Positions 11,206 to 39,473 of a DNA stretch of 64,000 bases are shown piece by piece. The notes beneath the pieces are model-generated. The model saw nothing but the letters and a program-made list of their open reading frames with translations, did no database searches and was not told the DNA's origin. A program made the translations under genes and the position numbers. The first letter of the stretch is position 1. The number at the start of each line of letters is the position of its first letter. Origin of the DNA: an uncultured Anaeroplasmataceae bacterium (GTDB lineage Bacteria; Bacillota_I; Bacilli_A; Acholeplasmatales; Anaeroplasmataceae); contig CALUYM010000001.1 in NCBI GenBank assembly GCA_944325035.1, positions 310,001 to 374,000 on the forward strand, given 5' to 3'.

Positions 11206-11235
11206 TTGACATCACTTTCAAGACTATTGTATAAT
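11206..11235 (+). promoter_or_regulatory. Promoter of the 24-kb envelope operon
   Basis: A perfect TTGACA (11206-11211) and perfect TATAAT (11230-11235) are 18 bases apart. It is the only good promoter I see before the nine long genes that end at 35,272. Transcription would start near 11,242. Confidence 0.75.
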
Positions 11236-11261
11236 TATGCTGAGTGCTTGGAGGGGTTTTA

Positions 11262-11297
11262 ATGTTTATTTTGAGAGAAGATTTAATCTTTACTTAA
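11262..11297 (+). CDS. Possible 11-residue leader peptide
   Basis: ATG 11262 to TAA 11295 encodes MFILREDLIFT. A strong ribosome-binding site (TTGGAGGGG) precedes it by about six bases, better than those of many real genes here. It lies about 20 bases after the predicted transcription start and ends ten bases before a perfect hairpin with a T-run. This is the layout of a transcription-attenuation leader, in which translation of a short ORF decides whether a terminator forms. The peptide is not enriched for one amino acid, so the signal cannot be guessed. Confidence 0.45.
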   Translation: MFILREDLIFT

Positions 11298-11306
11298 ATA
11301 AATTTT

Positions 11307-11335
11307 GTTGATAATTTTTAATTATCAACGTTTTT
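11307..11335 (+). terminator. Leader terminator or attenuator
   Basis: GTTGATAATT (11307-11316) pairs perfectly with AATTATCAAC (11320-11329), with a three-base loop, followed by GTTTTTG. It lies between the promoter and the first gene of the operon, so full transcription must pass it. No competing antiterminator stem was worked out. Confidence 0.55.
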
Positions 11336-11368
11336 GACTTTTATATACCATTTATAAGGAGTGATACT

Positions 11369-12778
11369 ATGGTTGAGAATAAAAAAATCAAAGGTGTTGG
11401 ATTAAAAGTAACTTTTATTTTAGTCGTTACATTTTATATAAATCTAATGATTATTATGTTTAGAGAATCTAATTTATTGATTGAAGAATTAAAGATGATT
11501 TCTTTAATTTTATTATTAGTTTTAGATTTTTTTATATTTATATATATTATTTCGCTTGTTAAATCAAATAAAAAAAGATTTCGCTTTTCTGAAAACGATT
11601 TAAGAAAAATGGTCAGTACCCTACCTTGTCCTAATTATGAAGAAATAGTTCGTGAAGAAATTAAAAAAAATGATAAAGAGATTAAAATGGTAGATGCAAA
11701 AGAAGAAATTGATCATCAATTAGATACAGCTTTGGAACTTGCTAGTATGAATATGGAAGTTGATTTATCAAAATTAGAAGATGCTAATGATGAAGTCAAT
11801 TCATTAATTAGTTCTTCAGAATGGGATTTTACGTCTACATTTAATGAAATTGCAGAAAAATTAAACGATATTTTATTAACAAAAGGCTATAGAATTGAAA
11901 GGAAAAGTATTGTTACTTTTTTAAGTGCAATGTCAACTACAAAAGTTATTTTTCTAGATGGAGATAGTTTAGTTTCATCTTTATTTATTGAAGCTTTTAA
12001 TATTTTTATAGCATCAAGTATGACATATACAGAAATAAAACCAAAGTTTCATCATCCAATTGATTTATACTTTGAGGCTAGAGATAATAAACGGTATAAA
12101 TCAGAATTTATAAAGTCTTTATATTACGCATCAGATAATAAAGATGGAATTCATTTTGCAGTTTTAAATGATGTCTATTTACCACGAGCTGAGGAGTATT
12201 TAGCTGAGTTATTGCCAATTTTTGATAATCCGGTTGAAAAACATACAATTTTACTACGTACAAAAGACAAAAATATAAAATTAGATTTTTCTACAAATCT
12301 ATGGATTATTGGTATTTTAAAAGATAATAGTTCATTCGTTTCTAACCGTATTTTAATGAAAAATTCATGTGTTGTAAAAATAAAAGGTGAACTATGTGAA
12401 AAAGAGGATATAGATTTAGAAGAAACACAGATGTTATCTTTTGGACACTTTAACGAATTAATTCGAATAAATCGTGAAGAATTTTTATTAAGTGAAGAAA
12501 CATGGAAAAAAATTGATGATTTGAGCGACTTTTTAAAAACAAAGGAGCGAGTTGCATTAGGAAATAAAGAATATTGTTTAATAGAAGATTATATTTCAAC
12601 TTATGCTAGTATGGGTTATAGTCTAGAAGAAGCACTTGATTCTGTTTTAGCATTGCGAATCTTACCATTTATTTTATCAAATAACTTAGAAGAGGAACGT
12701 AGACATGAGTTACTTGAGATTTTAGACAAAATCTTAGGAGTTGATAATAATATTTTATCTTCAAAATTATTAAAGTAA
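11369..12778 (+). CDS. Membrane-anchored McrB-like pseudo-ATPase
   Basis: A 469-residue protein with two N-terminal membrane helices (about 11-31 and 41-63), a charged linker, and a cytosolic domain. The domain lines up with the AAA+ domain of the two downstream ATPases: the region before the Walker A (SIVTFLSAMSTTKVIFL versus DIRRFIAGLATTHIIIL), the Walker B region (IHFAVLNDVYLPRAEEYLAE versus IYITVLDEMNIARVEYYFAE) and the sensor strand (NLWIIGILKDNSSFVSNRI versus NMWFIGTANNDDSTFAISD). The Walker A GMSGTGKT is replaced by GDSLVSSL, and the Walker B LDE by LND, so nucleotide hydrolysis is unlikely. It is the first gene of the operon; AAGGAG precedes ATG 11369. A structural or regulatory partner of the active ATPases is my inference. 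Confidence 0.7.
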   Translation: MVENKKIKGVGLKVTFILVVTFYINLMIIMFRESNLLIEELKMISLILLLVLDFFIFIYIISLVKSNKKRFRFSENDLRKMVSTLPCPNYEEIVREEIKKNDKEIKMVDAKEEIDHQLDTALELASMNMEVDLSKLEDANDEVNSLISSSEWDFTSTFNEIAEKLNDILLTKGYRIERKSIVTFLSAMSTTKVIFLDGDSLVSSLFIEAFNIFIASSMTYTEIKPKFHHPIDLYFEARDNKRYKSEFIKSLYYASDNKDGIHFAVLNDVYLPRAEEYLAELLPIFDNPVEKHTILLRTKDKNIKLDFSTNLWIIGILKDNSSFVSNRILMKNSCVVKIKGELCEKEDIDLEETQMLSFGHFNELIRINREEFLLSEETWKKIDDLSDFLKTKERVALGNKEYCLIEDYISTYASMGYSLEEALDSVLALRILPFILSNNLEEERRHELLEILDKILGVDNNILSSKLLK

Positions 12779-12794
12779 GGAGGAAATTTTGGTA

Positions 12795-14300
12795 ATGAAT
12801 TTGATACTTGCCACAGCTTTAAATTTCCTTGACATTGCTGGGATTTCAAAATCAGTGTGGGAATTTTTATCTAAGCCATTGATGATTATTATATATGTAT
12901 CTTTAATGGTATTTATGGTTATTTTGCTATGTTTACTAGTTATTACTAATGAGTATCGTAAACCTAACTATTATAAAACTAAAAAAATAGAAAATCCGGA
13001 TATTATAATTGGCGATATAGATTCATCGCAAGATAGTAAGAGAAAACGACATAAAGATAAAGCTGATTTTGTTGGTCAATCTGAGTTATTAGAAGATACA
13101 ATTGAAAAAGATTACCGAGAAGATGAAAATGACGATGATAATCAAATAAAAGCTGATAATTTATCTAAAAAAGAACTTTATATCTCTAATTCAATAAATC
13201 AAGAAGAAGTAAATCAGGATAAAACAAGATTTTATATGCTAAGTCAAATTGATAAAGAATATGAAGTTGAACATGATTTTAATTTTAATAATACATTAAG
13301 CTTACAAGAAATATGTAATATATTCAGAGATTTTTCTAGTTATAGACTTAATTTATATTATGATATATCAGATATTCGTCGTTTTATAGCAGGACTAGCA
13401 ACCACCCATATTATAATTTTGCAAGGTATGTCAGGAACTGGAAAAACATCTTTAGCCTATGCTTTTGGGGAGTTTTTAAATAATTCTACGACAATTTTAC
13501 CTATTCAGCCAATGTGGAAAGAAAGAACTGACTTAATTGGATATTACAACGAATTTACAAAGAAATTTAATGAAACAGTACTACTTCAAAAATTATATGA
13601 AGCAAATTATAATGATCAAATATATATTACAGTATTAGATGAGATGAATATAGCAAGAGTAGAGTATTATTTTGCGGAGTTTTTATCATTATTAGAAATA
13701 CCTAATTTAGAAGGAAGAATGCTAGATGTAATATCAGATGAATGGGAAAGTGACCCTAAATTATTAAAGAAAGGTCAATTACGTTTACCTGCAAATATGT
13801 GGTTCATTGGAACAGCGAATAACGATGATTCAACATTTGCGATATCAGATAAAGTATATGATAGAGCAATGGTAATAAATTTAGATACTAAGTGTTTACC
13901 GTTTGAGGCTAAAAAAACTAATTTTGAAGCAATAAGTGCAAGTTATTTAGAAGAGAAGTTTAAAGAAGCGGTAAAGAAATTTAGAATAACGACTAGAAAT
14001 TTAAACCGATTACAAAAATTAGATGAATATATGATTGAAAGGTTTCATATAACATTTGGGAATCGAATTATGAAGCAGATAAAGACATATGTACCAGTGT
14101 ATGTAGCTTGTGGTGGAGATGAAGTTGACGCCTTAGATGATATATTATCAAGAAAAGTATTTAGAAAGTTAGAAAGTCAAAACCCGGTGTATGTTAGAAG
14201 TGAAGCTAAAAAATTAGTTAATTTCATGGATGATTTATTTGGAACTGAGAATATGAAACTTTGTAAAGAAGTAATTTACAAAATAGAAAGAACTGTTTAG
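12795..14300 (+). CDS. Membrane-anchored McrB-type AAA+ ATPase, copy 1
   Basis: A 501-residue protein: one N-terminal membrane helix (about 28-51), a charged linker of some 110 residues, then a McrB/MoxR-type AAA+ domain with Walker A GMSGTGKT (about 211-218), Walker B ITVLDEMN (about 277), and sensor 1 in FIGTANNDDS. In McrBC systems such ATPases drive a nuclease partner; here the neighbour is a coiled-coil protein without a visible nuclease. I took ATG 12795, 11 bases after AGGAGG; TTG 12789 is the alternative. From base 13,128 the gene is identical to copy 2, while the membrane anchor and linker differ. The cytosolic side for the motor follows from the basic residues after the helix. Confidence 0.85.
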   Translation: MNLILATALNFLDIAGISKSVWEFLSKPLMIIIYVSLMVFMVILLCLLVITNEYRKPNYYKTKKIENPDIIIGDIDSSQDSKRKRHKDKADFVGQSELLEDTIEKDYREDENDDDNQIKADNLSKKELYISNSINQEEVNQDKTRFYMLSQIDKEYEVEHDFNFNNTLSLQEICNIFRDFSSYRLNLYYDISDIRRFIAGLATTHIIILQGMSGTGKTSLAYAFGEFLNNSTTILPIQPMWKERTDLIGYYNEFTKKFNETVLLQKLYEANYNDQIYITVLDEMNIARVEYYFAEFLSLLEIPNLEGRMLDVISDEWESDPKLLKKGQLRLPANMWFIGTANNDDSTFAISDKVYDRAMVINLDTKCLPFEAKKTNFEAISASYLEEKFKEAVKKFRITTRNLNRLQKLDEYMIERFHITFGNRIMKQIKTYVPVYVACGGDEVDALDDILSRKVFRKLESQNPVYVRSEAKKLVNFMDDLFGTENMKLCKEVIYKIERTV

Positions 14301-14306
14301 AAAGGA
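13128..14306 (+). repeat. 1,179-bp direct repeat, copy 1
   Basis: By eye this stretch is identical, base for base, to 16,544-17,722. It covers the end of the linker, the whole AAA+ domain, the stop codon and six bases beyond. The distance between copies is 3,416 bp. The identity includes silent positions, so recent duplication or gene conversion is needed to explain it. Confidence 0.9.
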
Positions 14307-14315
14307 TGGCCTTAG

Positions 14316-16154
14316 ATGAGAAAAGTTGATATTTTATACCGAAGTTATCTTAATTATCGCCATTTGACTGAGAAAAATTCGGATTTATTAAAAGAACGAA
14401 AAATATTTAAGGCTAATCATTCAGAACTTGATAGTTTAGAATCAAAACATTATAAGATTACAATTGACGCTGACTGGATAAAATTTATCGAATCAAAGTT
14501 AGATTATATTGAAAAAGCTATTAAAGAAGATAGACAATTTATTCTAACGAATGGTGAAGTAGTTCCAATTGAAAAAAATCGGCGTGTAAGTAGAGCATCG
14601 GTTGTTCATTTAGCAAAGCATAGTAATCTAATTAAGACAATACCACAAAATCCAAATGATACTTTAATTCCTGAAAAAATTTATCAAGAGGAAAAATTAA
14701 CAGATTATGCAGTTTATGAAAATCGTTTTTTGTATATGCTTTTAGTAAATTTAAAGGAATTCGTCCAGCTGAGACTTGATAAAATTGCTGAAATTAGCAA
14801 AACCTTTGAAACTAAAATTCAAATGGATAAAAAAATAAGTATAAGTGAACGTGAAATTAATTTTAAATTAACGTATGATGAATTAAATTTAGAAAATATT
14901 GAAGAAGCACTTGATGAAACAAGTAAGGAATTATTCATTCGCATTGAAGATGTAATGGTAAGAGTGAATAGTTTTTTAAAAACAGATTTAATGATTGAAG
15001 TTTCAAAAGCTCCGATTATTAAACCGCCACTTATAAAAACGAATGTCTTAAAGATGAATCAAAACTTTAAACGTTGTGTCGAATTATATGATTTTATTTC
15101 AGCATTTAATGAAGATGGCTTTTCAAAACAAGAGATTTATACGCGTTTTAATCCGTTTAGCGATAAAGTTGCGGATAATGTTTTAGAACTTATTTCACTT
15201 ACTTCATTTTTTGGTTTGAGATATGGATCAAACATTGAAGAAAACCTAAAAGCTGAATACGAGAAAGAAGAAGAAAGAATTCGTCAAGAAAAAGCTAAAG
15301 AACACCTATTGAAACTAAAACAATTAAAACGTGTATTACAAGAATCTAAGACTTCATTAGAAGAATACTTATTGGCTTTAGAAGAAAGAAATAAATTCTT
15401 AGAAGCTCAAGTCCTTAAACTTAAGACACTAGTTAATGAAAAAGATTTAAAAATTCAAGAATTAAATGACAGTATTATTACCTTAAAAAAAGAAATTACA
15501 AGTCTTACTCTCCAAATTGAGGAATTAACATTCGTTATAAAACAAAAGGATGAAGAGATTGTAAAACTTAAACTTGAATATGAACAGGCTATAAAAAAAT
15601 TGGTTTTAGAGTATGATAATAAACTTGAAAAACAAAAAAATGATTTTGAAGAAAATCTCATTAATCTTGAAAATCGTAATAAAGAAGTTCTTCAAAGCCT
15701 GGAAAGCGAATGCGAAAGTAAGATTAAAATAATCATTGAATCATATGAAGATAGAATTTCTATGATGAAAGATGACATCAATAATCTTAAATTAACATAT
15801 GAAAATGATATGAATCTTCAAACAGTTGAGAGTAGTAAGAAGTTCGAAAATTTAGCTCAAGAATTTGATTTGTTTAAAGAGAGTGTTAATCAAGATAATA
15901 GATCTTTAAAACAAAAAATAGATGAGATAACAAAAAAATATAATGATTTAAAGAAGGAAAATGATTTAGCTTCAGCCCAAATTCATGGCCTTCGATACAA
16001 TCAAGGGTTAATCAAAGAAAATGAGGATTATACTTCAAAAGATGCGTTTTTAAAGCTTGAAGCTGAGTATGATGCTTTTACGAAGTTCTATAAAGCTCAG
16101 TGGAAGAAAACAAAAAAAAGGATTAAAGAAGATATTTTAAAAAATAAAAAGTAA
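14316..16154 (+). CDS. Coiled-coil protein, DUF2357-like N-terminal region
   Basis: A 612-residue soluble protein. The first 300 residues are mixed alpha/beta and contain IYQEEKLTDYAVYENRFLYM, which resembles the ENRF-type motif of DUF2357 proteins, known partners of McrB-like ATPases. From about 305 to 560 it is a long, highly charged coiled coil (repeated E/K/L heptads such as LEERNKFLEAQVLKLKTL). I see no PD-(D/E)XK nuclease motif, so it would not be a restriction nuclease. It lies between the two ATPase genes, 15 bases after the first. ATG 14316 follows AAAGGA. I infer a cytosolic scaffold or adaptor for the AAA+ proteins. The DUF2357 link is tentative. Confidence 0.6.
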   Translation: MRKVDILYRSYLNYRHLTEKNSDLLKERKIFKANHSELDSLESKHYKITIDADWIKFIESKLDYIEKAIKEDRQFILTNGEVVPIEKNRRVSRASVVHLAKHSNLIKTIPQNPNDTLIPEKIYQEEKLTDYAVYENRFLYMLLVNLKEFVQLRLDKIAEISKTFETKIQMDKKISISEREINFKLTYDELNLENIEEALDETSKELFIRIEDVMVRVNSFLKTDLMIEVSKAPIIKPPLIKTNVLKMNQNFKRCVELYDFISAFNEDGFSKQEIYTRFNPFSDKVADNVLELISLTSFFGLRYGSNIEENLKAEYEKEEERIRQEKAKEHLLKLKQLKRVLQESKTSLEEYLLALEERNKFLEAQVLKLKTLVNEKDLKIQELNDSIITLKKEITSLTLQIEELTFVIKQKDEEIVKLKLEYEQAIKKLVLEYDNKLEKQKNDFEENLINLENRNKEVLQSLESECESKIKIIIESYEDRISMMKDDINNLKLTYENDMNLQTVESSKKFENLAQEFDLFKESVNQDNRSLKQKIDEITKKYNDLKKENDLASAQIHGLRYNQGLIKENEDYTSKDAFLKLEAEYDAFTKFYKAQWKKTKKRIKEDILKNKK

Positions 16155-16171
16155 TGAAAGGAGATTTGGTG

Positions 16172-17716
16172 ATGAAAAGTAGAAGGCAAATTAAAATAGC
16201 ACTGGTTTGTTTATTTTTAGTTATGAGTTTAGTAGCTGTTTTATTACTAGGTTCATTAATTTATCGTTATCTAAATGGTGACTTTTCATCTACCACTCTT
16301 TTAAAGTCAGAAACGACTTATGTCATCATGTTTGCTGGATTATTAGCGTTTATAATTCTTTTATTACTGATAATTAATGCTGCTAAAGCTGTTGATATTT
16401 ATATTCCAGAAGTTAATTTAGATATTGATAAAGAATTAAGTATATCAAGATTTCAAGGTAATGATGTTATAGAAGAATCACAATCAACCAGATTAGAAAC
16501 TTACGAAAATTCATTATTGGAAAAAGATTATAAAGAAGATGAGAATGACGATGATAATCAAATAAAAGCTGATAATTTATCTAAAAAAGAACTTTATATC
16601 TCTAATTCAATAAATCAAGAAGAAGTAAATCAGGATAAAACAAGATTTTATATGCTAAGTCAAATTGATAAAGAATATGAAGTTGAACATGATTTTAATT
16701 TTAATAATACATTAAGCTTACAAGAAATATGTAATATATTCAGAGATTTTTCTAGTTATAGACTTAATTTATATTATGATATATCAGATATTCGTCGTTT
16801 TATAGCAGGACTAGCAACCACCCATATTATAATTTTGCAAGGTATGTCAGGAACTGGAAAAACATCTTTAGCCTATGCTTTTGGGGAGTTTTTAAATAAT
16901 TCTACGACAATTTTACCTATTCAGCCAATGTGGAAAGAAAGAACTGACTTAATTGGATATTACAACGAATTTACAAAGAAATTTAATGAAACAGTACTAC
17001 TTCAAAAATTATATGAAGCAAATTATAATGATCAAATATATATTACAGTATTAGATGAGATGAATATAGCAAGAGTAGAGTATTATTTTGCGGAGTTTTT
17101 ATCATTATTAGAAATACCTAATTTAGAAGGAAGAATGCTAGATGTAATATCAGATGAATGGGAAAGTGACCCTAAATTATTAAAGAAAGGTCAATTACGT
17201 TTACCTGCAAATATGTGGTTCATTGGAACAGCGAATAACGATGATTCAACATTTGCGATATCAGATAAAGTATATGATAGAGCAATGGTAATAAATTTAG
17301 ATACTAAGTGTTTACCGTTTGAGGCTAAAAAAACTAATTTTGAAGCAATAAGTGCAAGTTATTTAGAAGAGAAGTTTAAAGAAGCGGTAAAGAAATTTAG
17401 AATAACGACTAGAAATTTAAACCGATTACAAAAATTAGATGAATATATGATTGAAAGGTTTCATATAACATTTGGGAATCGAATTATGAAGCAGATAAAG
17501 ACATATGTACCAGTGTATGTAGCTTGTGGTGGAGATGAAGTTGACGCCTTAGATGATATATTATCAAGAAAAGTATTTAGAAAGTTAGAAAGTCAAAACC
17601 CGGTGTATGTTAGAAGTGAAGCTAAAAAATTAGTTAATTTCATGGATGATTTATTTGGAACTGAGAATATGAAACTTTGTAAAGAAGTAATTTACAAAAT
17701 AGAAAGAACTGTTTAG
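16172..17716 (+). CDS. Membrane-anchored McrB-type AAA+ ATPase, copy 2
   Basis: A 514-residue protein whose last 391 residues are identical to those of copy 1, including Walker A GMSGTGKT (about 224-231), Walker B VLDEMN and the TANNDDS sensor. Its N-terminus is unrelated: two membrane helices (about 8-30 and 50-71) instead of one, then a different linker until DENDDDNQIKADN. ATG 16172 has AAAGGAG eight bases before it; an upstream ATG at 16154 overlaps that site and is less likely. It follows the coiled-coil gene by overlap of the region and precedes the first giant repeat protein. Two motors with one engine and different anchors could form a mixed hexamer. Confidence 0.85.
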   Translation: MKSRRQIKIALVCLFLVMSLVAVLLLGSLIYRYLNGDFSSTTLLKSETTYVIMFAGLLAFIILLLLIINAAKAVDIYIPEVNLDIDKELSISRFQGNDVIEESQSTRLETYENSLLEKDYKEDENDDDNQIKADNLSKKELYISNSINQEEVNQDKTRFYMLSQIDKEYEVEHDFNFNNTLSLQEICNIFRDFSSYRLNLYYDISDIRRFIAGLATTHIIILQGMSGTGKTSLAYAFGEFLNNSTTILPIQPMWKERTDLIGYYNEFTKKFNETVLLQKLYEANYNDQIYITVLDEMNIARVEYYFAEFLSLLEIPNLEGRMLDVISDEWESDPKLLKKGQLRLPANMWFIGTANNDDSTFAISDKVYDRAMVINLDTKCLPFEAKKTNFEAISASYLEEKFKEAVKKFRITTRNLNRLQKLDEYMIERFHITFGNRIMKQIKTYVPVYVACGGDEVDALDDILSRKVFRKLESQNPVYVRSEAKKLVNFMDDLFGTENMKLCKEVIYKIERTV

Positions 17717-17722
17717 AAAGGA
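16544..17722 (+). repeat. 1,179-bp direct repeat, copy 2
   Basis: This is the second copy of the repeat at 13,128-14,306. Just outside, the two copies differ at once (A versus G at 13,127/16,543; TGGCC versus GTTAA after the repeat). Recombination between the copies would delete the coiled-coil gene and fuse the ATPase genes. Confidence 0.9.
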
Positions 17723-17733
17723 GTTAATATAAC

Positions 17734-20700
17734 ATGGTTAAAAGAAATAAACTAATGTTTGCTTTATCTTGTTTTTTAATGAGTCTAATTGCATTAATCG
17801 GAGTCTACTTTGTTTTAGCCGCAGTTGGTTGTATTGGCTACCGAACTAATCATATAAAGATAATTTCAACAAGTTCTGAAAAAACTTATGATGGAACTGA
17901 ATTGGTAAGCAATGACTATAAAATGGTAGGTGAACTGGGTTTTGGTGCTACATTGGATATTGATTTTACTGGTTCGCAATTAAATGCAGGTACATCAGAC
18001 AATACTTTTCAAGTAAAAGTACGTGATGCAAATGGGATAGACATTTCATCAGATTATGAAATTGAAACTGTTTTTGGAAAATTAAAGGTAAATCCTATCA
18101 CAATTGGTATTGAAGCGAAAAGCGCTGAGAAATTATATGATGGTGTTGCTTTAGAAGCTAATGAATATACAGTTACTCAAGGTGCTCCAATTGAAGGTGA
18201 TAGAATTGAAGCAGTTGTAATTGGTTCAATTACTGATATTGGTGTAATTGAAAATAAGGTAACTGCCAGGGTTGTTAATGAAGTTGGAGAAGATGTGTCT
18301 AGTAATTATAATTTAGTTTTAACTAATGGTAAACTAACAGTACTTGCATCAAGACTTAGTGTTCAAACTCAAACTATTTCTAAATATTATGATGGAACAC
18401 CATTAGTTACTGATCCTAAGACTGATTGGCAGATAACAAGCGGACAACTTTTAAAAGGACATTATACTGAAGTTTACATGAATGCTAAAATTACGAATGT
18501 AGGTGAAGTATCAAACACTTTAGTATTTTATATTAAAGATGAAAATGGAAATGATGTTACTAATTTATATGAAATTAATTACTCATATGGGAAATTAATA
18601 GTCGAAGCTTCTCCACTTGTAATTCAATGTGGTAGTGATAAAAAAATTTACGATGCCACCCCTTTTAGTGTTGAAGATTATACAATTATTAGTGGAAATT
18701 TAGCTGAAAATAATCAGGTAGTTGTTACAAATGCTCCAAGAGGGATAAATGTAGATGAATATATTAATGATTTGCAATTTCGAGTTGTTGATTCATATGG
18801 TAATGATATTTCTAGAAATTATCAGATCAAAGTGTTACCTGGGATGTTTGAAATTTTGCCAAGAATAATTAAAATTAAGACAAACGATGCGACTAAAATC
18901 TATGATGGATATGCTTTAACTGTTGATGACTATGAATTACTTGAAAATTCGATGACTTTAATTGATGGTCACCAATTAGTTTATATTAATGATGTTTTTG
19001 TAGACGTTGGAAAGTATGAAAACATATTCAAATCAATAAAGATTTATGATGGACAAACTGATGTAAGTTCAAATTATGAGTTTTATTTTGAAAGTGGGTT
19101 AATTTCAATTTTACCAAGAGATATCGAGTTAACTATTCTAAAAGGTGAGAAAGTGTTTGATTATAAACCTTTTTACTATACTGATTATCAAATAACTGGT
19201 GGAATGACTTTAGAAGGTATTTTGAGTAAAACATTTTTTAAAGTTGATGAAGAAAAAAGCGATAAAATAATCAAAGCTGGATATTATAATGCGAGTGATT
19301 ACTTCCTTTTTAAAGCATATTTAGGTGATCAAGATATTACGTCTAACTTTAATATTATTTTAAAAGACGTTGAAACTAATAACGTTTATATAAGTCCATA
19401 CCAACTTACTATCAAAACACCTAGCGTGACTAAGGTATTTGATAATAAACCGTTTAATATTTCAGAAGTTGAAATTGTTTCAGGTCGTGAGTTTATTCGA
19501 GATATTGGTGCGAATGTTACTATGAACCCGCATGAAAATATTATTTATGCAGGTACATATTTTAATAGTCTTACTACTTTGAATATTAATATAAATGGCG
19601 TTGATTATTCAAAAAGCTTTGAAGTATCTGAAATAGTAGAAATGGGAACATTAACTATAACTCCTTACGAATTTACAGTTATTACTCCTAATATTACACA
19701 TGAATTTGATACCGAAAATCATTATACAGTTAATGTAGATGAACTTGTTTTACCAGAATTTATTACTAGTAATGAAAATAGATTTAACTTGTTTGTATTT
19801 AAAGTTGATAGTGCAGGTAATAAAGAAGATACAACATCATTTATAAAATTTGATAATACGATGGTAGGTACTCATACAAATCGAATATCTTTAGTAATAA
19901 GAGATACAAATTTTAATGATATTAGTTCGTCTTTTTATATTAATTATGTATATGGTTCAGTCACAATTACTAAAGCTAATATTTTAGTAACACAAACAAA
20001 AGATATCAATTCAATATATACTGGTACATCAGAATTAATGCCAAAAGAAGATTTTAAAATCACTGATAAAGATGGTTATGAAATTATTTGGCTAAATACG
20101 TTAGAGTACCAAATTATTTCTACTAATACTAATCTTAATGTAGGAAAACGCTTAAATAAGGTTGAGTTAACAGATGTTTATATAAATTTTGGCGGTTATA
20201 AAATTCCCACTGATTATATTTTAAATATTTCATATAATTATGGATATATTGAAATAATTCCAAGAAAACTTATTGTATCTCAATTAGAAGATTATGTGAC
20301 ATATTTTGATGGAAATGTTAAAAAAGTACCTAATAGATTATATGAAGTAAAAGATGGATCAAGTTCAAATAATACTTGGTTAAATGAATATTTAAAAAAT
20401 AATACAATAATATTTAATCAAAGAAATGATATCTTAAATGCTTATAATTATATAAATAATTTTAATATAACTATATCTAATGGAGAAAATGACTTAACAG
20501 CTAACTTTGAGATAAGTTATAATTATAGAAACATCATTGTGATGCCTAGAACTATTAATGTATCTCAAGTATCAGAAATTGCCAAAACATATGATGGAAC
20601 AATGGTTAAAACTACGATAAATGATTTAACAATATTACCACTAATACAGCCGGATGATATAGTATCAAAAGATGAAATTATGGATATCTTAACTAATTAT

Positions 20701-22404: not shown

Positions 22405-22433
22405 AGTAATTTTGAAAAGGAGCATTTAAACCT

Positions 22434-28400: not shown

Positions 28401-29756
28401 TATAATACATTATCAGAAATAACTTATCCTGGTAGCATTGATAACGTTGTAGATAAAATCAACATTTATGATGGTTTATTGGATGTAACTAACAATTATT
28501 CGATTAGATATAATTATGGTACATTAACTGTATATGCTAGATTAAAAATCACAACTGCTAGTCAAACTTTTGTATACGATCAAGAAAAACATTATTTACA
28601 TAGTTATACAATTGATGAAGATTCAAATATTTTGTTTAAGGAAGCAAAATATAAGTTTAATTTAGAATTTTTATATAATAAGTCTAATCCAATGATACAC
28701 GCTGGTACTTATTATAATATTGCAAGTTTAGCTAATGTTTATAATGACTTAGAAGTCGATGTTACGAATTATATTCAATTTGAATATACTCCAGGTAATA
28801 TTTGTATTGAACGTGCAGATTTAACAATCGAATCAATTTCTTTACAAAAAAACTTTGATGGAACAAATATTATAAATCATAGTTATAAAATTAATGGATT
28901 AAATACTATTTATAATGATTCTACTATTTTAGTAGCTAATAAACCTGATAAATTAACTTTAGAATTTAATGATGATGAACAAGCTATTTATAGTGGAGAA
29001 TCTAGAGAAAATAAATTTACATTCAATATTACAAATAACAATTTTAATGTTAGTAGAAATTATAATGTAACAGTTATTTATGGTCTATTAGTTATCTCGG
29101 GTTCGAAACAAGTGTTGATTTTAACACCTAGTTCAATTACTAAACTATATGATGGTGTTACAATTAATAAAGCTAACATTTCATATCGCTTTGGACTTGG
29201 CTATTTACCAACTGGATTTGATATTAAAATATCAGAAATTAAAATAATGAAAAATAATAATGAGGTTGATTCAATTACAGATGTTGGAGAGTACATTATT
29301 AGCTTTACTAATAAAGATGATATTAGAATATATAATGAACAGGATATTGATATTACTAATAACTATGATATATATATTCAAACGTCAAAAATTAGAGTTA
29401 TCAAAGCAAGTATATCTGTTAGTACTGAAGATATGTACCGAGTTTATACAGGTAAGAGTGTATCTACGAAAGAAGTTAATATTTCGATTTCAAATGGAAA
29501 ACTACCAGCTGGTACAGAAATTAAAGAGGCAAAATTTGAGTATATTTATAATAAAAACCCAGAGATAAATCATGCAGTTATCGCTGGAGAGTATACTATT
29601 AGAATTGCAAGTTTTGTACTTGTAGATGCTAGTGGAAATGTAATATTTGAATTTAAATATAACGATTCAAGCAATCTAGATGTTGATTCGGTTGATGGTA
29701 ATTTTAGAATCAGCTTTAGTTTTGGAATACTAACTATTGCAGATACCAATTCTTAA
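22434..29756 (+). CDS. Giant MBG (YDG) repeat surface protein 2
   Basis: A 2,440-residue protein, the largest in the window. A basic cytosolic N-terminus leads to one membrane helix (about 26-46), then a first module of different type (ITYGDDYLY, ITYGDEPSL), then about 25 modules, most with a clear KVYDG-type motif (KIYDGKEL, KVYDGLPL, KVYDGQTL, RVYDGDEF, KLYDGVTI and others). Modules are about 80-95 residues and end in DVTxNYEIxxxxGxLxILxR. If each folds as an Ig-like domain, the chain could reach well beyond the cell wall. There is no sorting signal. AAAGGAG lies before ATG 22434, 29 bases after protein 1. Binding target unknown. Confidence 0.8.
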   Translation: MISYKKYEEKMRKIAKVRHTIYRLRLLIGSMILLVIALIVSFLSTKGIIIKGLECPLEITYGDDYLYTAKALFSDVSYEFRPKGRSEWSDEKPYLPGEYEMRAISNRFFGAKGYSDIQVFSILPKDIEIKVKDSKITYGDEPSLTADLVGNDRIAEVEFNYENIELTSTVVNPIDSSIVIVDETGRDVTKAYDIKTVKSDITFLKRNLTLQINSETKIYDGKELNAKDYTIVDGSFGFSDTINIDFSTGISSVGNTIVKSKNAIIKNYDKDVTNHYNLTILEGNLEITKRPLTITTASEKKVYDGLPLTNSEINLSQNGLVAGHHIEKIKTTSIVNAICAKNQVEEIQILDEAGNDVTENYDINYEYGLLEIEKRKITLESFSKTKVYDGLKLSNNLYQINSGSLADGDKLSVSLESSIINVEKTTNQFSDVLITNFAGDNVTANYNINYIEGTLEILPRRISLSGLDHIFVYNGLEQKASGYQINSGSLVPMQTLNVTISGSLIKVGQIPTSFESIVIKDEYGNDVTANYEIDEVVGSITILKRKISIKPIDLEIYYTGYEIMTSHYEFTDASLYQLAYGDFLTDVTTSKSLVDAGNYFNQIISCKIYNINKEDVTDCYEIDMSSEARLNIKRRPIIIIPESKNKVYDGVNLVTDQIIITDESRFNLASTDFFSDVRLNNSRILNAGSIDVTIANYVIVNSEGKDVTNNYEITEKIGKLTITPRPITIKPIDVSKVYDGQTLGTNNIVLSNKSSYSLIPGDAIYGLTTKVITYVGKSLNSISKKSVIITNSTGDITSNYEITYEDGYLEILPRNISIKPIDKSKVYDGTNLEILADNGFEYLSSTRYFLAIGDELNATYNGFQRYVGSTNISFETIQIQNSENIDVTDCYIIDKEDGILTIYERSISIKPEDVVKVYDGIALTSNKAVLAENSRYDLAIKDRVEITTNGSVVNATETEYLDNAVINEIVDYKILNSEGLDVTYCYNVDVNIGYLSVLRREISISPQIASKVYDGTFLTSNKVVLLKDSKYQLVSNHEIEIITNGKVKYVSDGRVKNQIESFIIYNNNQEDVSYNYKVNTVDSSLEILARKLSIKPMDINKVYDGFSSSVTSVDYLNNTMLAYEDVIKFELLNYNNFKNVSDSTDNNTISNVQIFNTDGIDVTSSYEIDLNPGCVIISKRKIAIQPQNVTRVYDGDEFIQTKGVLVNSTLGKGDNLSITSETLKDNTHGVIQYNVIHHEIYDNYLVNTTNNYEVTYLKGEINILPRPITIKPIDIEHEYDGTIFKYNLNTVEVLDNSYGLVKTHSLLVNSVLGSIVNVGITKSTINSVSIYQDEINVTDNYDITFIDGTLTVLKRQITINLNDLEKVYDGTNRIDLNDAYTLSKELAPNDKISLNILSDNSTIGTHVTRVLTAFVFKDNNDVTNNYDLSFTNGSIKINKRDLVVSPVNATKVYDGQPLGITEVIVNGLVENHEFIFTSNTITNVGSVDFLVQSYDILAKNGKSLLENYNVRFEKALISVKKREINVEFRSEFEYDGTNHHIEHYYFTNETYLAKGDIFTFSTNNSQMKPGTYYFDIANYQIFNSYGYDVTNNYIINKETGCLVINKRKVTVQILDKQKVYDGMPLTSNEYEVILGSLVTGDILEVMTNGSIVYYQEGGIINDYLSHKIYDLNNQEVSTYYEIEFISGKLNIIKRDITIKTSSANFVYNTNFHSSDDYEIVSGNLVLKDIIKVQSKFFKDVQIINGKVVGYDNTLSVLIYNDSIDVTSSYNITYEYGIVTIEQYTVYYKTPSNSIMYDINNPIFTSFTIAGDEANSYLNTDKLIIKSKSLANSKDKLGIVQNIQELSVDSNNYQFECLSIGQIRVSLSITYKSKDLMGEYNGQAYQCLELGTISYTDTFGGQIRFELNQSESKKYINAGVYNNEQSLIFKYENKDVTDFIVVKNDYGKITITTREITIQTASAKMEYNGQALTTKHENVVVKTILGHIVKYNTLSEITYPGSIDNVVDKINIYDGLLDVTNNYSIRYNYGTLTVYARLKITTASQTFVYDQEKHYLHSYTIDEDSNILFKEAKYKFNLEFLYNKSNPMIHAGTYYNIASLANVYNDLEVDVTNYIQFEYTPGNICIERADLTIESISLQKNFDGTNIINHSYKINGLNTIYNDSTILVANKPDKLTLEFNDDEQAIYSGESRENKFTFNITNNNFNVSRNYNVTVIYGLLVISGSKQVLILTPSSITKLYDGVTINKANISYRFGLGYLPTGFDIKISEIKIMKNNNEVDSITDVGEYIISFTNKDDIRIYNEQDIDITNNYDIYIQTSKIRVIKASISVSTEDMYRVYTGKSVSTKEVNISISNGKLPAGTEIKEAKFEYIYNKNPEINHAVIAGEYTIRIASFVLVDASGNVIFEFKYNDSSNLDVDSVDGNFRISFSFGILTIADTNS

Positions 29757-29779
29757 AATGGGAATTTAGGAGGATTATA

Positions 29780-31144
29780 ATGAATCAAGGGTTTAAAACC
29801 TATTTTGGGGAAGGCATGCAAACCTCAAAAAGGACTTTAAAGAAAAAAGGAAATCTTATTAAATTTTATTTTCTTTGGATAATCAGTTTTTTAGGAAATT
29901 TATCAATCATATTTGCACCGGTTGTCAGTCTTGTTAAAACAAGATTGGCATACCGTGCTAATTTAAGTGAAGATATTTATGTATACGATGCACTTCGTAA
30001 GTCTGATAGTATCAAGCAAAATTGGACAAATTTTGTTTTTGCATTTACTAAAGGTTTATTACTATTAGCTGGAATAGTGTTAATCGGTATAATTGGAGGA
30101 TTAGCCTTTGGATTTGGATATGTTTTAACAAAAAAAGGTCAAGATGATTTTATGTTAGGCACTTTATTGTCAATTCCATTTGGCGTTATTATGTTTATAT
30201 ACATAATTGTTTTTTGGATTTATTTTGCACCAAGTAAGTATCTTCTAAACTATAGTCAAGATTTAACTAATTCTAAGGTGCTATATAACTCAGTAAACAC
30301 AATGCGAAATGGTGGTAAATGGACATATTTCATGCTAAATTTTGTATATGGTCTATTGATATTTTTATATCTAGGAATTACCTCATTTATCATAACTATG
30401 ATGATGTTAAATCAAGAATATATCGTTATAGTATTTGGTTATATTTTATTGATTATATTTGTAATTGTTTTTTTAGCTATTTATCCAAGATTATCTTTAG
30501 CAAGAGCTTGTAGCTTATATCGACTATATGATGATATTATAGAAGTTGATTTTGAATGTGAATGTGCAACTTCAATGGAAACGGCTTCTTATGTTTCTAG
30601 AAAACGGAATAGTAAAGATAAAAATAAGTTTATAGCAGCAAATAAAGAACAAATTCTTGTAAGCTTGTTTAAAGAAACAAAGGCAGATAAGGGCAAAAAG
30701 AACAATGATATTTTAGCTAATTTTAAAGATAATACTAAATTTAAAGTTACTGAATTAAGTGATGAAGAAAAAGATATAAACTTTGATAATGCTGAAAATA
30801 TAAAAATTGAGCGTTTATCTGAGATTGATAAAAAAACCTACGATAATGATTTTTCAGATAATGCGCCTAATGTGGAATTAAATTTTGCTCAAGAGAATTC
30901 TATGTTAGAAGAAAAATCGAAAATTACTGCTAATTCATTTGAGGTACCAAAGCAAATGAAAAAACAATTGTATAAGGATAGACAATCAGAAACTAGTATT
31001 TTTAATGATAAAGCAAACGCTAATTCTGAAAAAAAATATAATAGTGAAGATATTGATGTAATTGGTGGAAGAGAACCACAAACTATGTCAAACAACAAAA
31101 ATAATCTAAAAATGACAAAAACATCAATAGATAATAATGAATAA
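29780..31144 (+). CDS. Membrane protein with long disordered cytosolic tail
   Basis: A 454-residue protein not recognised by name. The first 240 residues hold about five hydrophobic helices with APVVSLVKTRLAYRANLSED between the first two, a layout that recalls DUF975-type integral membrane proteins. The rest (about 245-454) is polar, rich in K, E, N and D, with no hydrophobic stretch, so it is probably disordered and cytosolic. GGAGG precedes ATG 29780, and the gene is 24 bases after giant protein 2. A role in placing or secreting the repeat proteins, or in docking the ATPases through the tail, is a guess from position alone. Confidence 0.65.
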   Translation: MNQGFKTYFGEGMQTSKRTLKKKGNLIKFYFLWIISFLGNLSIIFAPVVSLVKTRLAYRANLSEDIYVYDALRKSDSIKQNWTNFVFAFTKGLLLLAGIVLIGIIGGLAFGFGYVLTKKGQDDFMLGTLLSIPFGVIMFIYIIVFWIYFAPSKYLLNYSQDLTNSKVLYNSVNTMRNGGKWTYFMLNFVYGLLIFLYLGITSFIITMMMLNQEYIVIVFGYILLIIFVIVFLAIYPRLSLARACSLYRLYDDIIEVDFECECATSMETASYVSRKRNSKDKNKFIAANKEQILVSLFKETKADKGKKNNDILANFKDNTKFKVTELSDEEKDINFDNAENIKIERLSEIDKKTYDNDFSDNAPNVELNFAQENSMLEEKSKITANSFEVPKQMKKQLYKDRQSETSIFNDKANANSEKKYNSEDIDVIGGREPQTMSNNKNNLKMTKTSIDNNE

Positions 31145-31170
31145 TTTTCTTAGAAAGGAATGAATTAAAA

Positions 31171-31875
31171 ATGACAACGTATCGGATTTTAGCTATTGTG
31201 GCAATAGTCCTTGTTTTAGTTATCGGTTTAATCCGCTTTAAACTAAAGCTATTTAAAAAAGTCTATGTCTTTAATTACATAAAACCGTCAGCTAAGAAAA
31301 TTGTCAAAGATAGTGGAATGATGTCAATCATTTATGAACCTAATAAAGAGACTAGACGTTTTATTAGCGAATACTCCTTAAGTAAAATTAATAAAAGAAA
31401 ATTTTTTCTAGCTAAATATCAAAAAATATATAAACAAATCATTTATTTTATTTATGTTTATGATCGTAATAACAAGCTGATTAAATTAATTGAGGTTAAA
31501 GATGCTAAACGTAATTCAACATCACAAATGATAAAACTTCCTAAAAAAACAAAGTCTGTAAATGTCTATTTAAAAAGTGTCAATAATGAAGTTTATAACA
31601 TGTATGCTATAAGACCGATAACAAAACTTCGTTTATTTGCGGCTTCAATAATGTCTAGTCTACAAGTCTTTTTAATAGTTTTTGCTTTAAGGAATTTAAT
31701 ACTAGAGTTTTATAATCCAATTCAAGTTGAATCATTTTTAAAATCAGATCTAAATTTAACAACGATAATTTACGTATTTTTATTAACAATTGTCTTTTTT
31801 ATTAGCTACTTTTTAATAGCCTTAATCTTAAATGGTAATTTTAGAAAGAAAGGAGGAACTTTATATGATTTCTAA
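31171..31875 (+). CDS. Three-helix membrane protein of unknown function
   Basis: A 234-residue protein with one helix at the N-terminus (about 4-22), a basic soluble middle of some 130 residues that looks beta-rich (KLIKLIEVKDAKRNSTSQM), and two helices near the C-terminus (about 158-178 and 197-221). I do not recognise the family. GAAAGGA precedes ATG 31171. Its last 11 bases overlap the start of the next gene, so the two are translationally coupled. It appears to be a dedicated component of the operon. Confidence 0.6.
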   Translation: MTTYRILAIVAIVLVLVIGLIRFKLKLFKKVYVFNYIKPSAKKIVKDSGMMSIIYEPNKETRRFISEYSLSKINKRKFFLAKYQKIYKQIIYFIYVYDRNNKLIKLIEVKDAKRNSTSQMIKLPKKTKSVNVYLKSVNNEVYNMYAIRPITKLRLFAASIMSSLQVFLIVFALRNLILEFYNPIQVESFLKSDLNLTTIIYVFLLTIVFFISYFLIALILNGNFRKKGGTLYDF

Positions 31876-34800
31876 ATCAAGTAAAAAAAATAATATAATT
31901 GATTTACAGGAGTATTTATTCCAAATTGATCCTGAAAGTAAGAATAAGTATGTCTTTTTAAAACTGATTAATAATTATAAAGAACCTCTTTATGCTTTAA
32001 AAGCTGGAATAAAGCAGTTTGATAATTTAGGTAATGTAATTGCCGATGAAGATTTTGATATCGATGGTTTAAATGTTAATAAGCACCAAGAATTTGTACC
32101 ATATGTTAGAATTCAAGTAAAAGATCAATGCTGTAAAATAAAATTTGACCTAAAAGGTGCTAAATTTAAAAAATTTGTTTTCCCATCTATTGAGGTAAAA
32201 AAAGCAGAAAAACTAATTAAAGATACATTTAAGTCTACTAATAGAAAAAGTAGAAATCGTTTTAGACTAATTTTATTGAGTGTTGCTTTAAGTATGATTG
32301 CAATTTCATCATTTGTAAGCTATTATTTTATTAATGATTACTTAAATAATAATTTACATATTGCATATGATGGATATGAATTTGATGTCAATCGTAAAAA
32401 TGCAACTATTACTAAATTACCAGATGATGAGGAATTAATTATTCCTACTATTTTAGCAAATGATTTTAGGGTTGTTGGAATTGAAGCTAGTGCCTTCGAT
32501 GGACTAAAAGCTAAAAAAATTGTTATTGAATCTGAAAATATTTCTATTCCTAGTTATGCATTTAGTGAATCTGAAACTTTAACTAGTTTTGAAGCTCAAA
32601 ATTTAGCAAGTATTGGTGATTACGCTTTTAATAATGCTAAAAACTTAGTATCAGTAAAAATAAACATTGTAAATAGTATTGGACTTAATGCTTTTGAAAG
32701 CTGTACAAATTTGGAAAAAGTTGAAATTAATGCAAAAACTATTTCTTCATATGCTTTTAAAGATTGTTCAAACATCACAAGCTTTAGCTCGGATATAGTA
32801 GAATATATTTCTTCATATGCTTTTCTAAACGCTATCAAATTAACAACCTTAAATGTCCCTAATGCTACATTAGGAAATAGGTGTCTTGAAAATACAGCTA
32901 TTGAAACATTAACGTTTGGTAATGTTGATTATAATGTGATGACATTTGGCACATTATTTGGAATTGAAAATGAAAATGCAACAGTAAAAAATCTTGAAGT
33001 AAATATGCCTGATATTCCAAGTAATTTTTTTCAGTATTTGCCGAATTTAAATCTTGTTTTAAGTGATTCTGTATATGTAAATTATGGTGCCTTTAATCAC
33101 TCAAAATTAGCTGGTTATAAAATAGTTAATGGAATGGAAATTCTAAATAATACGCTTATATCTATTTCTCCTGCTTTAAATGAAATAAGCATTCCAAGCG
33201 AGATTACTAGTATCAATAGTCAAGTTTTTAAAAATAGTCAGATTTCATCGATTACAATAAATTCAAGTAATATTAATTTGAATGAATCTCTCGATTCTAT
33301 TAAAAATTACTTTTCATTATATATGTCTGAAAATACACGTATTATAGGTGGAATTATTAATAATCAAAACCTAGGTAGTGTTACAATGAGTGCCAATAAT
33401 ATTAATACATTTGGTAAACTTTTTACTCAATATCAACCATCTTATGTTATGATTATAGGAACATCAATTCATTCGGGATTTTTCTCAGATTATATGGCTA
33501 ATGGTGAAATTGACATTACATCTTCTGTTAGAAATATTGCTTCTAATGCTTTTGAAAATGCCAATGTCAAGAAATTATCAATTCCAGCATTAGGAGATAG
33601 ACTTGATACTTATGGTACATTTTCTTTGCTTGAGGAACTAAGTGTTATTAATAATAATGAATCAAGTTTACCGGCAAATTTTGTAAGAGGTTTTACTGAA
33701 TTGAAAAAACTTAGTATTTCTTCAAATATTACATCTATGTCTTTACCCTTGATTGGAAGTAATTGTACAAGTTTAGAAGAAGTTATTACTCCATTTGTCG
33801 GTAGAAGTAGTGACTTTACTACCTCACTAAGTACATTTAATAGCTCGTATACTAATTTAAAATACTTAACAATAACAGGATACGGTACATTAGGTGCACT
33901 TGGTGCTAATAATTTAAAGGAATTATCTTTCAATACTTTAAATGTTTCATCATCAACTCATGTTTTAGACGGAAGTGATAATCTAGTAAAATTATCTTAT
34001 TCAGGTGCTCAATCCTTATCGAATTTGTTTTCCGTTATTCCAACTAGTCTTATTTATGTATCTATTTTTAATAATGGGCTTTTGAATACTTCTAATCTAT
34101 TGGAAGGGTCAAATGTGAAGATTTTTGAATCACATGGTATTTCAAGCTATAATGATAAAGCATTTACAGGAGCGCAATCTTTAGAGTATGCATATTTCGA
34201 TGATTATATAAATAGTTTTCACTCATTAGGGAATTTAAATGAATTGATTTACCCTAATATATTAAAAATTTTATCGCCTACTTTTTTATCTGGAACGTAT
34301 AATAATACAATTCAAGTTTTAAATTACATAAATTATAATCATATCTATAATTTGAAATATGAGGATAAAAATTATCAATATGATAGTATTTTTATCTATG
34401 ATCTTGAGGTTTTAATGGATAAGTTAAATATAAATAGTAAGTCAGATTTAATCTTACAAGAAAACGGAACAACATTAAGTCTTCCATATTTCGGCTCGTT
34501 ACCTTTAACCCTTAAAAAGCAACAAGAAGAAGTAAATGTAACAATAATGAACCCAAATACAGTTACTTTAAGATTAGTAGATAAAACAATTACTACTTAT
34601 AAAACACTACTTCCAGATGAAAAATATAAATTGCCAAAAAATGTTATTGATTCTACTCAAATTTTTGCAGGTTGGTATACTGATTCTCAATTTCAAAATT
34701 TACTTAATAAAGAAGAATTTTTTGAAACAAATCAAACACTATATAAACGATATCTAAACAAGTCAGATTATCAGATTGCCGGAACAACTAGAACGTATAA

Positions 34801-35272
34801 TTTTGGAAATAATAGTCAATTTAACTTCTTAGCAACTGCAACGGGTAAAATTGAGATGTATTTATATGGAGATGATATAAATAAGATTTCAGTCTATCAA
34901 AATGGTATGAATATAAATTTAACGCAAACAAAGGAAGAAGAGTTAGTTAAAATTTCCTTTATGACTTCTATGTATAAAACATACCAAGTATACTTATATT
35001 CAGATTCTTCCCCAACTAAAACCACAGTTTTAGCATCATATACTGATAGTGTTTTATATCATAAATTTGAAGCATCATCAGGACTTGGATATACGGAAGT
35101 TAAGGCAGTAATAGCTTCTAATAAAATTGAAATTCCATATTTTGAAGGATTTACTTTTAAAGGATATTACAGTAAATCTAATGATTTAACCAGCGTATGT
35201 TACTTTAATGAAAAAGGAATTCAAGTAACACCATGTCCAGAAAATGCTAAATTGTATCCAATATATGAATAG
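31865..35272 (+). CDS. BspA-like leucine-rich-repeat surface protein
   Basis: A 1,135-residue protein in three parts. Residues 1-130 are a beta-rich domain that would lie in the cytosol (LINNYKEPLYALKAGIKQFD). A membrane helix follows (about 133-155). Outside comes a long LRR_5 (BspA-type) region with repeats such as IPSYAFSESETLTSFEA, IGDYAFNNAKNLVSVKI and ISSYAFKDCSNITSF. The C-terminus has InlB_B-like pieces (FAGWYTDSQFQNLL, FTFKGYY). LRR_5 proteins often bind host or bacterial surfaces. ATG 31865 is preceded by AGGAGG at eight bases and overlaps the previous gene; the longer reading is not needed. A terminator ends the operon. The cytosolic domain on a BspA protein is unusual. Confidence 0.8.
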   Translation: MISKSSKKNNIIDLQEYLFQIDPESKNKYVFLKLINNYKEPLYALKAGIKQFDNLGNVIADEDFDIDGLNVNKHQEFVPYVRIQVKDQCCKIKFDLKGAKFKKFVFPSIEVKKAEKLIKDTFKSTNRKSRNRFRLILLSVALSMIAISSFVSYYFINDYLNNNLHIAYDGYEFDVNRKNATITKLPDDEELIIPTILANDFRVVGIEASAFDGLKAKKIVIESENISIPSYAFSESETLTSFEAQNLASIGDYAFNNAKNLVSVKINIVNSIGLNAFESCTNLEKVEINAKTISSYAFKDCSNITSFSSDIVEYISSYAFLNAIKLTTLNVPNATLGNRCLENTAIETLTFGNVDYNVMTFGTLFGIENENATVKNLEVNMPDIPSNFFQYLPNLNLVLSDSVYVNYGAFNHSKLAGYKIVNGMEILNNTLISISPALNEISIPSEITSINSQVFKNSQISSITINSSNINLNESLDSIKNYFSLYMSENTRIIGGIINNQNLGSVTMSANNINTFGKLFTQYQPSYVMIIGTSIHSGFFSDYMANGEIDITSSVRNIASNAFENANVKKLSIPALGDRLDTYGTFSLLEELSVINNNESSLPANFVRGFTELKKLSISSNITSMSLPLIGSNCTSLEEVITPFVGRSSDFTTSLSTFNSSYTNLKYLTITGYGTLGALGANNLKELSFNTLNVSSSTHVLDGSDNLVKLSYSGAQSLSNLFSVIPTSLIYVSIFNNGLLNTSNLLEGSNVKIFESHGISSYNDKAFTGAQSLEYAYFDDYINSFHSLGNLNELIYPNILKILSPTFLSGTYNNTIQVLNYINYNHIYNLKYEDKNYQYDSIFIYDLEVLMDKLNINSKSDLILQENGTTLSLPYFGSLPLTLKKQQEEVNVTIMNPNTVTLRLVDKTITTYKTLLPDEKYKLPKNVIDSTQIFAGWYTDSQFQNLLNKEEFFETNQTLYKRYLNKSDYQIAGTTRTYNFGNNSQFNFLATATGKIEMYLYGDDINKISVYQNGMNINLTQTKEEELVKISFMTSMYKTYQVYLYSDSSPTKTTVLASYTDSVLYHKFEASSGLGYTEVKAVIASNKIEIPYFEGFTFKGYYSKSNDLTSVCYFNEKGIQVTPCPENAKLYPIYE

Positions 35273-35276
35273 CCTA

Positions 35277-35304
35277 AAAACCAGTTTTGCAAAGCTGGTT
35301 TTTA
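35277..35304 (+). terminator. Terminator of the 24-kb operon
   Basis: AAAACCAG (35277-35284) pairs with CTGGTTTT (35295-35302), followed by further T. A second weaker hairpin with a T-run (CACTT/AAGTG, 35331-35345) lies just downstream and may back it up. Confidence 0.8.
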
Positions 35305-35376: not shown

Positions 35377-35406
35377 TTGACAAAAGCTATTGTAAAATAT
35401 TATAAT
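35377..35406 (+). promoter_or_regulatory. Promoter of the uronate-breakdown operon
   Basis: A perfect TTGACA (35377-35382) and TATAAT (35401-35406) are 18 bases apart, 41 bases before eda. The -10 box lies within the palindrome ATATTATAATAT. An IclR-type regulator encoded downstream may act here, but no operator was proved. Confidence 0.7.
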
Positions 35407-36101: not shown

Positions 36102-36128
36102 GAATGAACCCTAACTTGGAGGAATGTT

Positions 36129-37157: not shown

Positions 37158-37162
37158 TTAAA

Positions 37163-37621: not shown

Positions 37622-37636
37622 TTAAGGAGAAATACA

Positions 37637-38680: not shown

Positions 38681-38684
38681 TTAA

Positions 38685-39431: not shown

Positions 39432-39440
39432 AAGAAAGGA

Positions 39441-39459: not shown

Positions 39460-39473
39460 AAGGAAATGCAAAT

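Follow-up and report, generated by a model that had tools for sequence, protein, structure and literature searches.

A conserved operon that links membrane-anchored McrB-type motors and a nuclease-free McrC-like protein to two giant surface proteins

Introduction

Work on McrB and McrC has treated them as a defence machine that cuts DNA. Here, we ask what such a motor–activator pair might do when it has lost its nuclease, sits at the membrane and is tied to giant surface proteins, as is the case in numerous Bacilli and Clostridia of the gut that have not been cultured. The question is raised by an operon in an uncultured bacterium whose closest named relatives are Anaeroplasma and Anaeroplasmataceae MAGs. 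The stretch of DNA analysed (‘the window’; 64,000 nucleotides, G000:C1:310001-374000) lies within a 1.55-Mb genome, and positions given below are those of the window unless a locus is named.

The original prediction, made from the letters of the window, was of a single envelope system in which cytosolic motors act on, or sense, extracellular fibres. Gene order and co-occurrence in other genomes speak for a single system; that the motors act on the fibres, or sense them, we only infer. We lean towards the view that the operon encodes a membrane-bound GTPase machine, derived from McrB/McrC, that serves two giant surface proteins anchored at their N-termini. If so, it is a concrete operon with which to probe the role of the non-nuclease branch of McrBC.

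Operon architecture

Nine co-directional open reading frames, which we name A to I, occupy positions 11369-35272 on the plus strand; in the ORF list the gaps between them run from -44 to +29 bases. As had been predicted, they stand between one promoter and one terminator. The promoter is of the sigma-70 type (TTGACA-N18-TATAAT; 11206..11235, +) and matches the consensus at 12 of 12 positions. The intrinsic terminator (35275..35304, +), directly 3' of the gene I stop codon, is a 13-bp stem with a T run (MFE -13.7 kcal/mol, z -4.1); it was found by folding, and was missed by a terminator scanner. The next gene has a 12/12 promoter of its own, at 35377-35406, and the spacer is 18 bases long in both promoters.

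The 5' leader (11242..11368, +) contains, by eye, an SD sequence and an 11-codon mini-ORF (11262-11297; MFILREDLIFT), followed in the fold by a hairpin (11307-11329) and a T-rich run. We regard this arrangement as attenuator-like, and putative; the leader as a whole shows no unusual folding stability (z -1.3), and an Rfam search of the window returned no RNA family.

A plausible ribosome-binding site precedes every gene of the operon. These sites make 12795, 16172 and 31865 the likely start positions for B, D and I, instead of those in the ORF list (TTG 12789, ATG 16154 and 31832, respectively). Membrane helices had been predicted for every product except the coiled-coil protein; simple hydropathy, the basis of our topology calls, agrees, with a predicted helix in all products except C.

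The flanking genes are unrelated to the operon. Upstream are an Obg-type GTPase (read by eye), an ECF transporter and a MATE protein, and downstream are KDPG aldolase, PfkB, IclR and KduI. The downstream genes form a sugar-acid catabolism cluster (35448-40310) comprising KDPG aldolase, two PfkB kinases, an IclR regulator and KduI, with a GGDEF protein after it.

Genes B and D: one motor on two anchors

Gene B (12795..14300, +) encodes a short anchor followed by an intact McrB-type AAA domain of the NxD kind (AAA_5, 4.9e-7), and gene D (16172..17716, +) encodes a different anchor followed by the same AAA domain (AAA_5). The original prediction of two AAA+ ATPases is thus confirmed, and to it can be added that their motor domains are identical over 1,179 bases. 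The two copies of this direct repeat (13128..14306 in B and 16544..17722 in D, both +) cover the AAA domains of both genes through to the stop.

Kinship with McrB emerges from a profile of 19 aligned relatives, which matched the E. coli McrB chains 6hz4, 6ut6 and 7vsr in the PDB (1.4e-4); single-protein PDB searches with P0003 and with P0004 gave no match. In these 19 relatives Walker A (GxSGTGKTS) and Walker B (LDE.N) are invariant, and so are N361, D363 and D364 (P0004 numbering) of the N-x-D-D motif, which contains the NxD signature and then D/E. No DNA-recognition domain is found at the N-termini of B and D; these are short transmembrane (TM) anchors.

Identity of the two motors is not peculiar to the window. 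In 20 of 37 loci the motor domains of B and D are at least 99% identical in protein sequence, mostly with 0-1 synonymous difference, and the best match of these motors to any other locus is only 69.5-94.9%. A tree of 66 rows pairs B and D by genome: the B and the D labels each need 21 changes for 22-23 rows, as if they had been dealt at random. The anchors behave differently from the motors. B anchors mostly have one TM helix across the loci and D anchors two or more, and leave-one-out profiles, built without the tested genome, assigned the correct type to 74 of 74 anchors. Judged from these sequences, B and D are in concerted evolution, with one motor kept on two distinct anchors. Same-genome identity of the motors, combined with conserved and distinct anchors, is explained by a duplication long ago, after which gene conversion has gone on acting on the motor part. 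At the remaining 17 of the 37 loci the B and D motors share 54-83% identity, so homogenization is common, not obligatory.

Two other origins of the identical pair were considered. Independent recent duplications were rejected since both anchor types are conserved. An assembly artefact was rejected on three points: a single contig of 1,554,229 bp (G206) carries both copies; several loci have few synonymous, and zero amino-acid, differences between B and D; and contigs tend to break at the B/D repeats. At three loci (L073, L074 and L081), and also at L065, a single AAA gene, without C, lies between A and the surface genes. Recombination between the identical B/D repeats, with C looped out, would produce such loci, and so would their collapse in assembly.

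Gene C: a McrC-like partner without a nuclease

Gene C (14316..16154, +) had been described as a coiled-coil protein. The long helix is present, of some 215 residues, yet C is not a mere coiled coil: it is itself the McrC-like partner, with a DUF2357 domain that is detected in all 31 C orthologues searched (for C of the window, E 4.1e-6, 26.6 bits against a cut-off of 23.3). The AlphaFold model (mean pLDDT 80.5) has a compact domain to residue 305, the helix at 348-562 and a short, conserved C-terminal helix. Only helices are modelled beyond residue 305, and residues 71-130, inside the DUF2357 profile match, are of low confidence. Neither a PD-(D/E)xK nor any other nuclease was matched in 15 full-length members of the C family, nor is one present in the C model. 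With the full-length model, Foldseek found neither McrC nor any other useful match, the long helix dominating the search, and a PDB search with a profile of the N-domain of C found none.

Gene A: a third, inactive paralogue

Gene A (11369..12778, +) encodes a TM hairpin and a pseudo-AAA domain without Walker A or B. It is a third paralogue of the motors (the A orthologue of G017 matches B and D at 1e-14), and the motor motifs are missing in all 16 aligned orthologues. Three A orthologues tested from Clostridia have an N-terminal GH3-like module, in which the GH3 C-terminal domain (1e-24 to 1e-32) and an Fn3-like domain (1e-8 to 1e-23) are recognized, whereas profiles give no match, or a marginal one, to the catalytic GH3 N-domain. 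A usually has two TM helices, and none in some lineages; with two, the GH3-like part should be cytosolic, as is the AAA part.

Surface and membrane proteins

The two giant proteins are encoded by genes E (17734..22404, +; 1,556 aa) and F (22434..29756, +; 2,440 aa). E has an N-terminal TM helix and a YDG/AgI-II-C2-like repeat array, and F has a conserved N-terminal anchor unlike that of E and a long repeat array. Their original label, MBG, is weakly matched by profile: fragments match AgI_II_C2 above the cut-off (1e-6, 29.7 bits against 27.1) and YDG below it (7.6e-4, 20.1 bits against 25), and at full length neither protein has a Pfam match at 1e-3. Among 93 E/F-type proteins there are two separate N-terminal families: 46 match the N-terminus of F, 36 that of E and 2 both. 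Eleven E- or F-type proteins (L056, L065, L069, L070, L075, L079, L082, L084, L106 and L125) have an extracellular transglutaminase-like motif, confirmed by Pfam for L075_05 at 2.8e-23. The idea that the fibres are TM-anchored as a consequence of a wall-less host was rejected, since three genes for PBP transpeptidases are present in the genome.

Gene I (31865..35272, +) encodes a cytosolic N-domain, one TM helix and an extracellular BspA-type array with Flg_new. The LRR_5 assignment that had been made for this last gene is firm (7e-30, 104 bits against a cut-off of 27.7). Between F and I are two membrane proteins. G (29780..31144, +) has six TM helices and a long cytosolic tail and matches no family, and its orthologues occupy the same place. 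H (31171..31875, +) has three TM helices and an 8-strand beta domain that is modelled well; when its model was searched with Foldseek, a generic beta-sandwich and no specific relative came back.

Conservation and co-occurrence

In a first survey, 41 relatives were searched with C and the loci then mapped; most of the relatives are MAGs. The full A-I order was found in G017 and G012, and portions of it, for the most part where a contig ends, in G001, G005, G016, G024 and G029. With G206 and G312, which came from a later draw of Bacilli genomes, the full order is present in the window and in four other genomes, and G097 has D-I. The core, AAA-DUF2357-AAA-surface-surface, extends across Bacilli and Clostridia. 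A-B-C-D-E-F occurs in many Clostridia MAGs, some labelled Oscillospiraceae and Lachnospiraceae, and the operon is carried by a cultured isolate, Anaerocaecibacter muris; in the Clostridia arrangement H and I usually precede A. Conserved gene order across species, which had been proposed as support for a single system, is thus found across genera, families and two classes. One genome, G295, has two diverged copies (L146 and L147) of a B-C-D-surface operon, and in that family an H-I-like fusion precedes B.

A contig scan found an MBG-type gene directly next in 25 of 29 BCD loci; the other four are, as far as examined, contig ends or effects of ORF calling. A draw of 296 Bacilli genomes contains at least 10 with C orthologues (E up to 1e-30), and every locus mapped from these 10 keeps AAA-C-AAA and the surface pair. 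A search of this draw with the F N-terminus found it in at least 12 genomes, among them each of the 10 with C; in the two additional genomes it belongs to pieces of the operon at the ends of contigs. Both counts are minimum values, the class search having scored part of the candidates. The chance that 10 genomes fall wholly within 12 of 296 is of the order of 1e-16 if shared ancestry is ignored, a significance that relatedness inflates. Co-distribution of C and F thus agrees with the predicted co-occurrence of ATPase and coiled-coil genes with MBG genes. In a Clostridia sample around A. muris the operon is patchy, being present in 2 of 341 genomes. We also sought ATPase genes accompanied by a nuclease and lacking surface genes, which would have spoken against the prediction, and recognized none among the loci mapped, where some of the neighbouring genes were profile-searched for nucleases. 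Where a relative lacks MBG genes, it is other secreted proteins that accompany the pair.

Related loci

Two such contexts are instructive. The first is a second locus type, found in the window genome and in most mapped members of the order, that comprises one AAA gene, one gene for a DUF2357 protein, two for signal peptidases of the SipW/archaeal type and others for small secreted proteins whose signal, FAWF, is TasA-like. In the window genome this is L035 9487-13170 (G000:C3, about 127-131 kb); GGDEF/EAL proteins lie just upstream, by eye. The locus type fits the short published description of CoCoPALM, a McrB-type system tied to secretion (PMC11090510, eLife 2024). In a tree whose rows include no published reference sequences, the 19 CoCoPALM-like rows fall together in a single clade (99/93) and the B/D rows in another, with a 100/100 branch between them.

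The second context is represented by L099 (7733-12997) and L100 (7733-13030). Here a single chain consists of a signal peptide, an external Pro/Thr-rich stretch of ~680 aa, a TM helix and a McrB-type AAA domain. The gene for this fused AAA is followed by C and then by threonyl-tRNA synthetase, without MBG genes. In both of these contexts, as in the operon, the AAA–DUF2357 pair is tied to secreted or external protein, and in none of the three was a nuclease recognized.

A proposed mechanism and its alternatives

How might such a system work? Letter-identical motors on different anchors point to a machine, so far undescribed, with surface fibres as its substrate, and they are a natural hint, of an uncommon kind, that the ring is mixed. 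We suggest that B and D are one AAA+ motor on two anchors, probably assembled into one mixed ring beneath the membrane, with GTP as the likely nucleotide. A, the dead paralogue, would be situated in or beside the ring as a regulatory subunit. C would dock on the ring through its DUF2357 domain and stimulate hydrolysis, by analogy with the action of McrC on McrB, and its coiled coil, roughly 30 nm long, would replace the nuclease and reach into the cytosol or along the membrane. Cycles of hydrolysis might then be transmitted through the anchors of B and D to the membrane ends of the E and F fibres, and to the LRR protein I, and the outcome would be control of the assembly, clustering or display of the E and F fibres.

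Besides the gene order, the co-occurrence, the motor motifs and the pattern of motors and anchors set out above, we count in favour of this machine that in L099 and L100 an AAA domain is fused to an external stretch, and that the sister clade pairs one AAA and C with SipW-like signal peptidases and TasA-like proteins. We count against it the loci with a single AAA gene and no C, the lineages in which A lacks TM helices, the 17 loci with diverged motors and the lack of a McrC match to the full-length C model. A bolder version is that the envelope machine produces force: a mixed AAA+ GTPase ring with two kinds of anchor and a nuclease-free McrC activator, in which hydrolysis moves, extends or pulls the two giant fibres and gene conversion keeps the motors interchangeable. 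This is possible but not probable, and we hold it only tentatively.

Signals could instead pass from the outside in. E, F and I would detect contact or a ligand, the AAA ring and C would relay the event to a cytosolic target, and the GH3-like module of A would be a sugar sensor. Protein I does span the membrane, with a cytosolic N-domain; A in Clostridia has GH3_C and Fn3-like domains with the catalytic part absent or marginal; and the coiled coil of C, as modelled, would make a plausible relay. No transcription factor, kinase or c-di-GMP enzyme is recognized inside the conserved block, however, and a pair of motors that are intact and the same fits work better than sensing. We consider this explanation rather improbable.

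We give a similarly low standing to the idea that the ring is a chaperone or export gate, handling E and F precursors during secretion, or extracting those that have failed, instead of acting on mature fibres. The clients are very long and have N-terminal anchors, and the sister clade is linked to signal peptidases, both in the loci mapped here and in its published description (PMC11090510). Against this, no signal peptidase is found among A-D and G-I, although signal peptidases are present in the paralogous CoCoPALM-like loci, and a gate leaves two anchors on one motor unexplained.

Derivation from McrBC brings to mind a non-nucleolytic anti-phage defence system, since type IV restriction typically involves McrB and DUF2357 and since B and D match the PADLOC candidate PDC-M26A at about 1e-47. 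The match is confined to the AAA part, however, and no nuclease was found. The flanks are housekeeping and sugar-acid metabolism genes, not a defence island (the sole PADLOC signal there is the HTH resemblance of the IclR regulator), and the linkage to giant surface proteins is strict. We regard defence as very unlikely. Least likely of all is that the ATPases and surface proteins are merely co-transcribed and function separately, as the presence of AAA and C without MBG genes in L099 and L100 might suggest, for two classes share the gene order and the co-occurrence, and the AAA of L099 and L100 itself bears a long external stretch.

Comparison with known systems

The membrane-bound machine that we favour has relatives of several kinds. 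With type IV restriction by E. coli McrB/McrC it shares the McrB-related AAA+ domain and the McrC-like DUF2357 activator domain; it differs in having membrane anchors, in having NxD and not NxxD, and in being without a DNA-recognition domain or a PD-(D/E)xK nuclease. CoCoNuTs resemble it in their NxD GTPase clade, their coiled coils and McrC homologues possibly without nuclease, as far as their description goes (PMC11090510). The operon, though, yielded neither HEPN nor any other nuclease, and neither a cold-shock nor an RNA-binding domain; membrane and surface partners are present instead. The likeness to PADLOC candidate PDC-M26 lies in the AAA region of B and D, which aligns with PDC-M26A; the best stretch covers positions 241-430 of 724, about a quarter of the profile, and no partner gene was recognized. 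We found no paper that gives the composition of PDC-M26. Among surface proteins, I resembles the BspA family through LRR_5, and E and F resemble the YDG and AgI/II_C2 repeats of YDG, MBG and AgI/II proteins; ours are distinguished by their N-terminal membrane anchors and by a conserved operon with McrB-type motors.

CoCoPALM is the closest comparison. The NxD clade of McrB GTPases has been defined, and in the short passage on the subject no NxD McrB had so far been characterized (PMC11090510); the clade and CoCoPALM are, to that extent, already known. In our literature search, CoCoPALM in this sense was found solely in the CoCoNuTs paper and its preprint. The original statement that no system of this make-up had been described therefore holds for the make-up itself, which we did not find described; the association of a related McrB with secretion has been published, as CoCoPALM. 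Common to both, so far as that passage goes, are an NxD McrB-type GTPase with a membrane helix, a coiled-coil DUF2357 partner and an association with secreted proteins. The CoCoPALM GTPase is described as fused to an FtsB-like TM helix and coiled coil, a fusion that is present in the paralogous locus, whereas B and D of the window have a TM helix and a variable linker (alignment, by eye). CoCoPALM-like loci have one AAA gene, with TM and coiled-coil regions, and have SipW-like signal peptidases and TasA-like proteins in their flanks. The operon has two AAA genes with identical motors on short anchors, a pseudo-AAA and two giant repeat proteins. What we take to be new, although the CoCoNuTs supplement may list some of the loci, is this combination of homogenized motors on twin anchors, a pseudo-AAA that can bear a GH3-like module and a constant pair of giant surface proteins.
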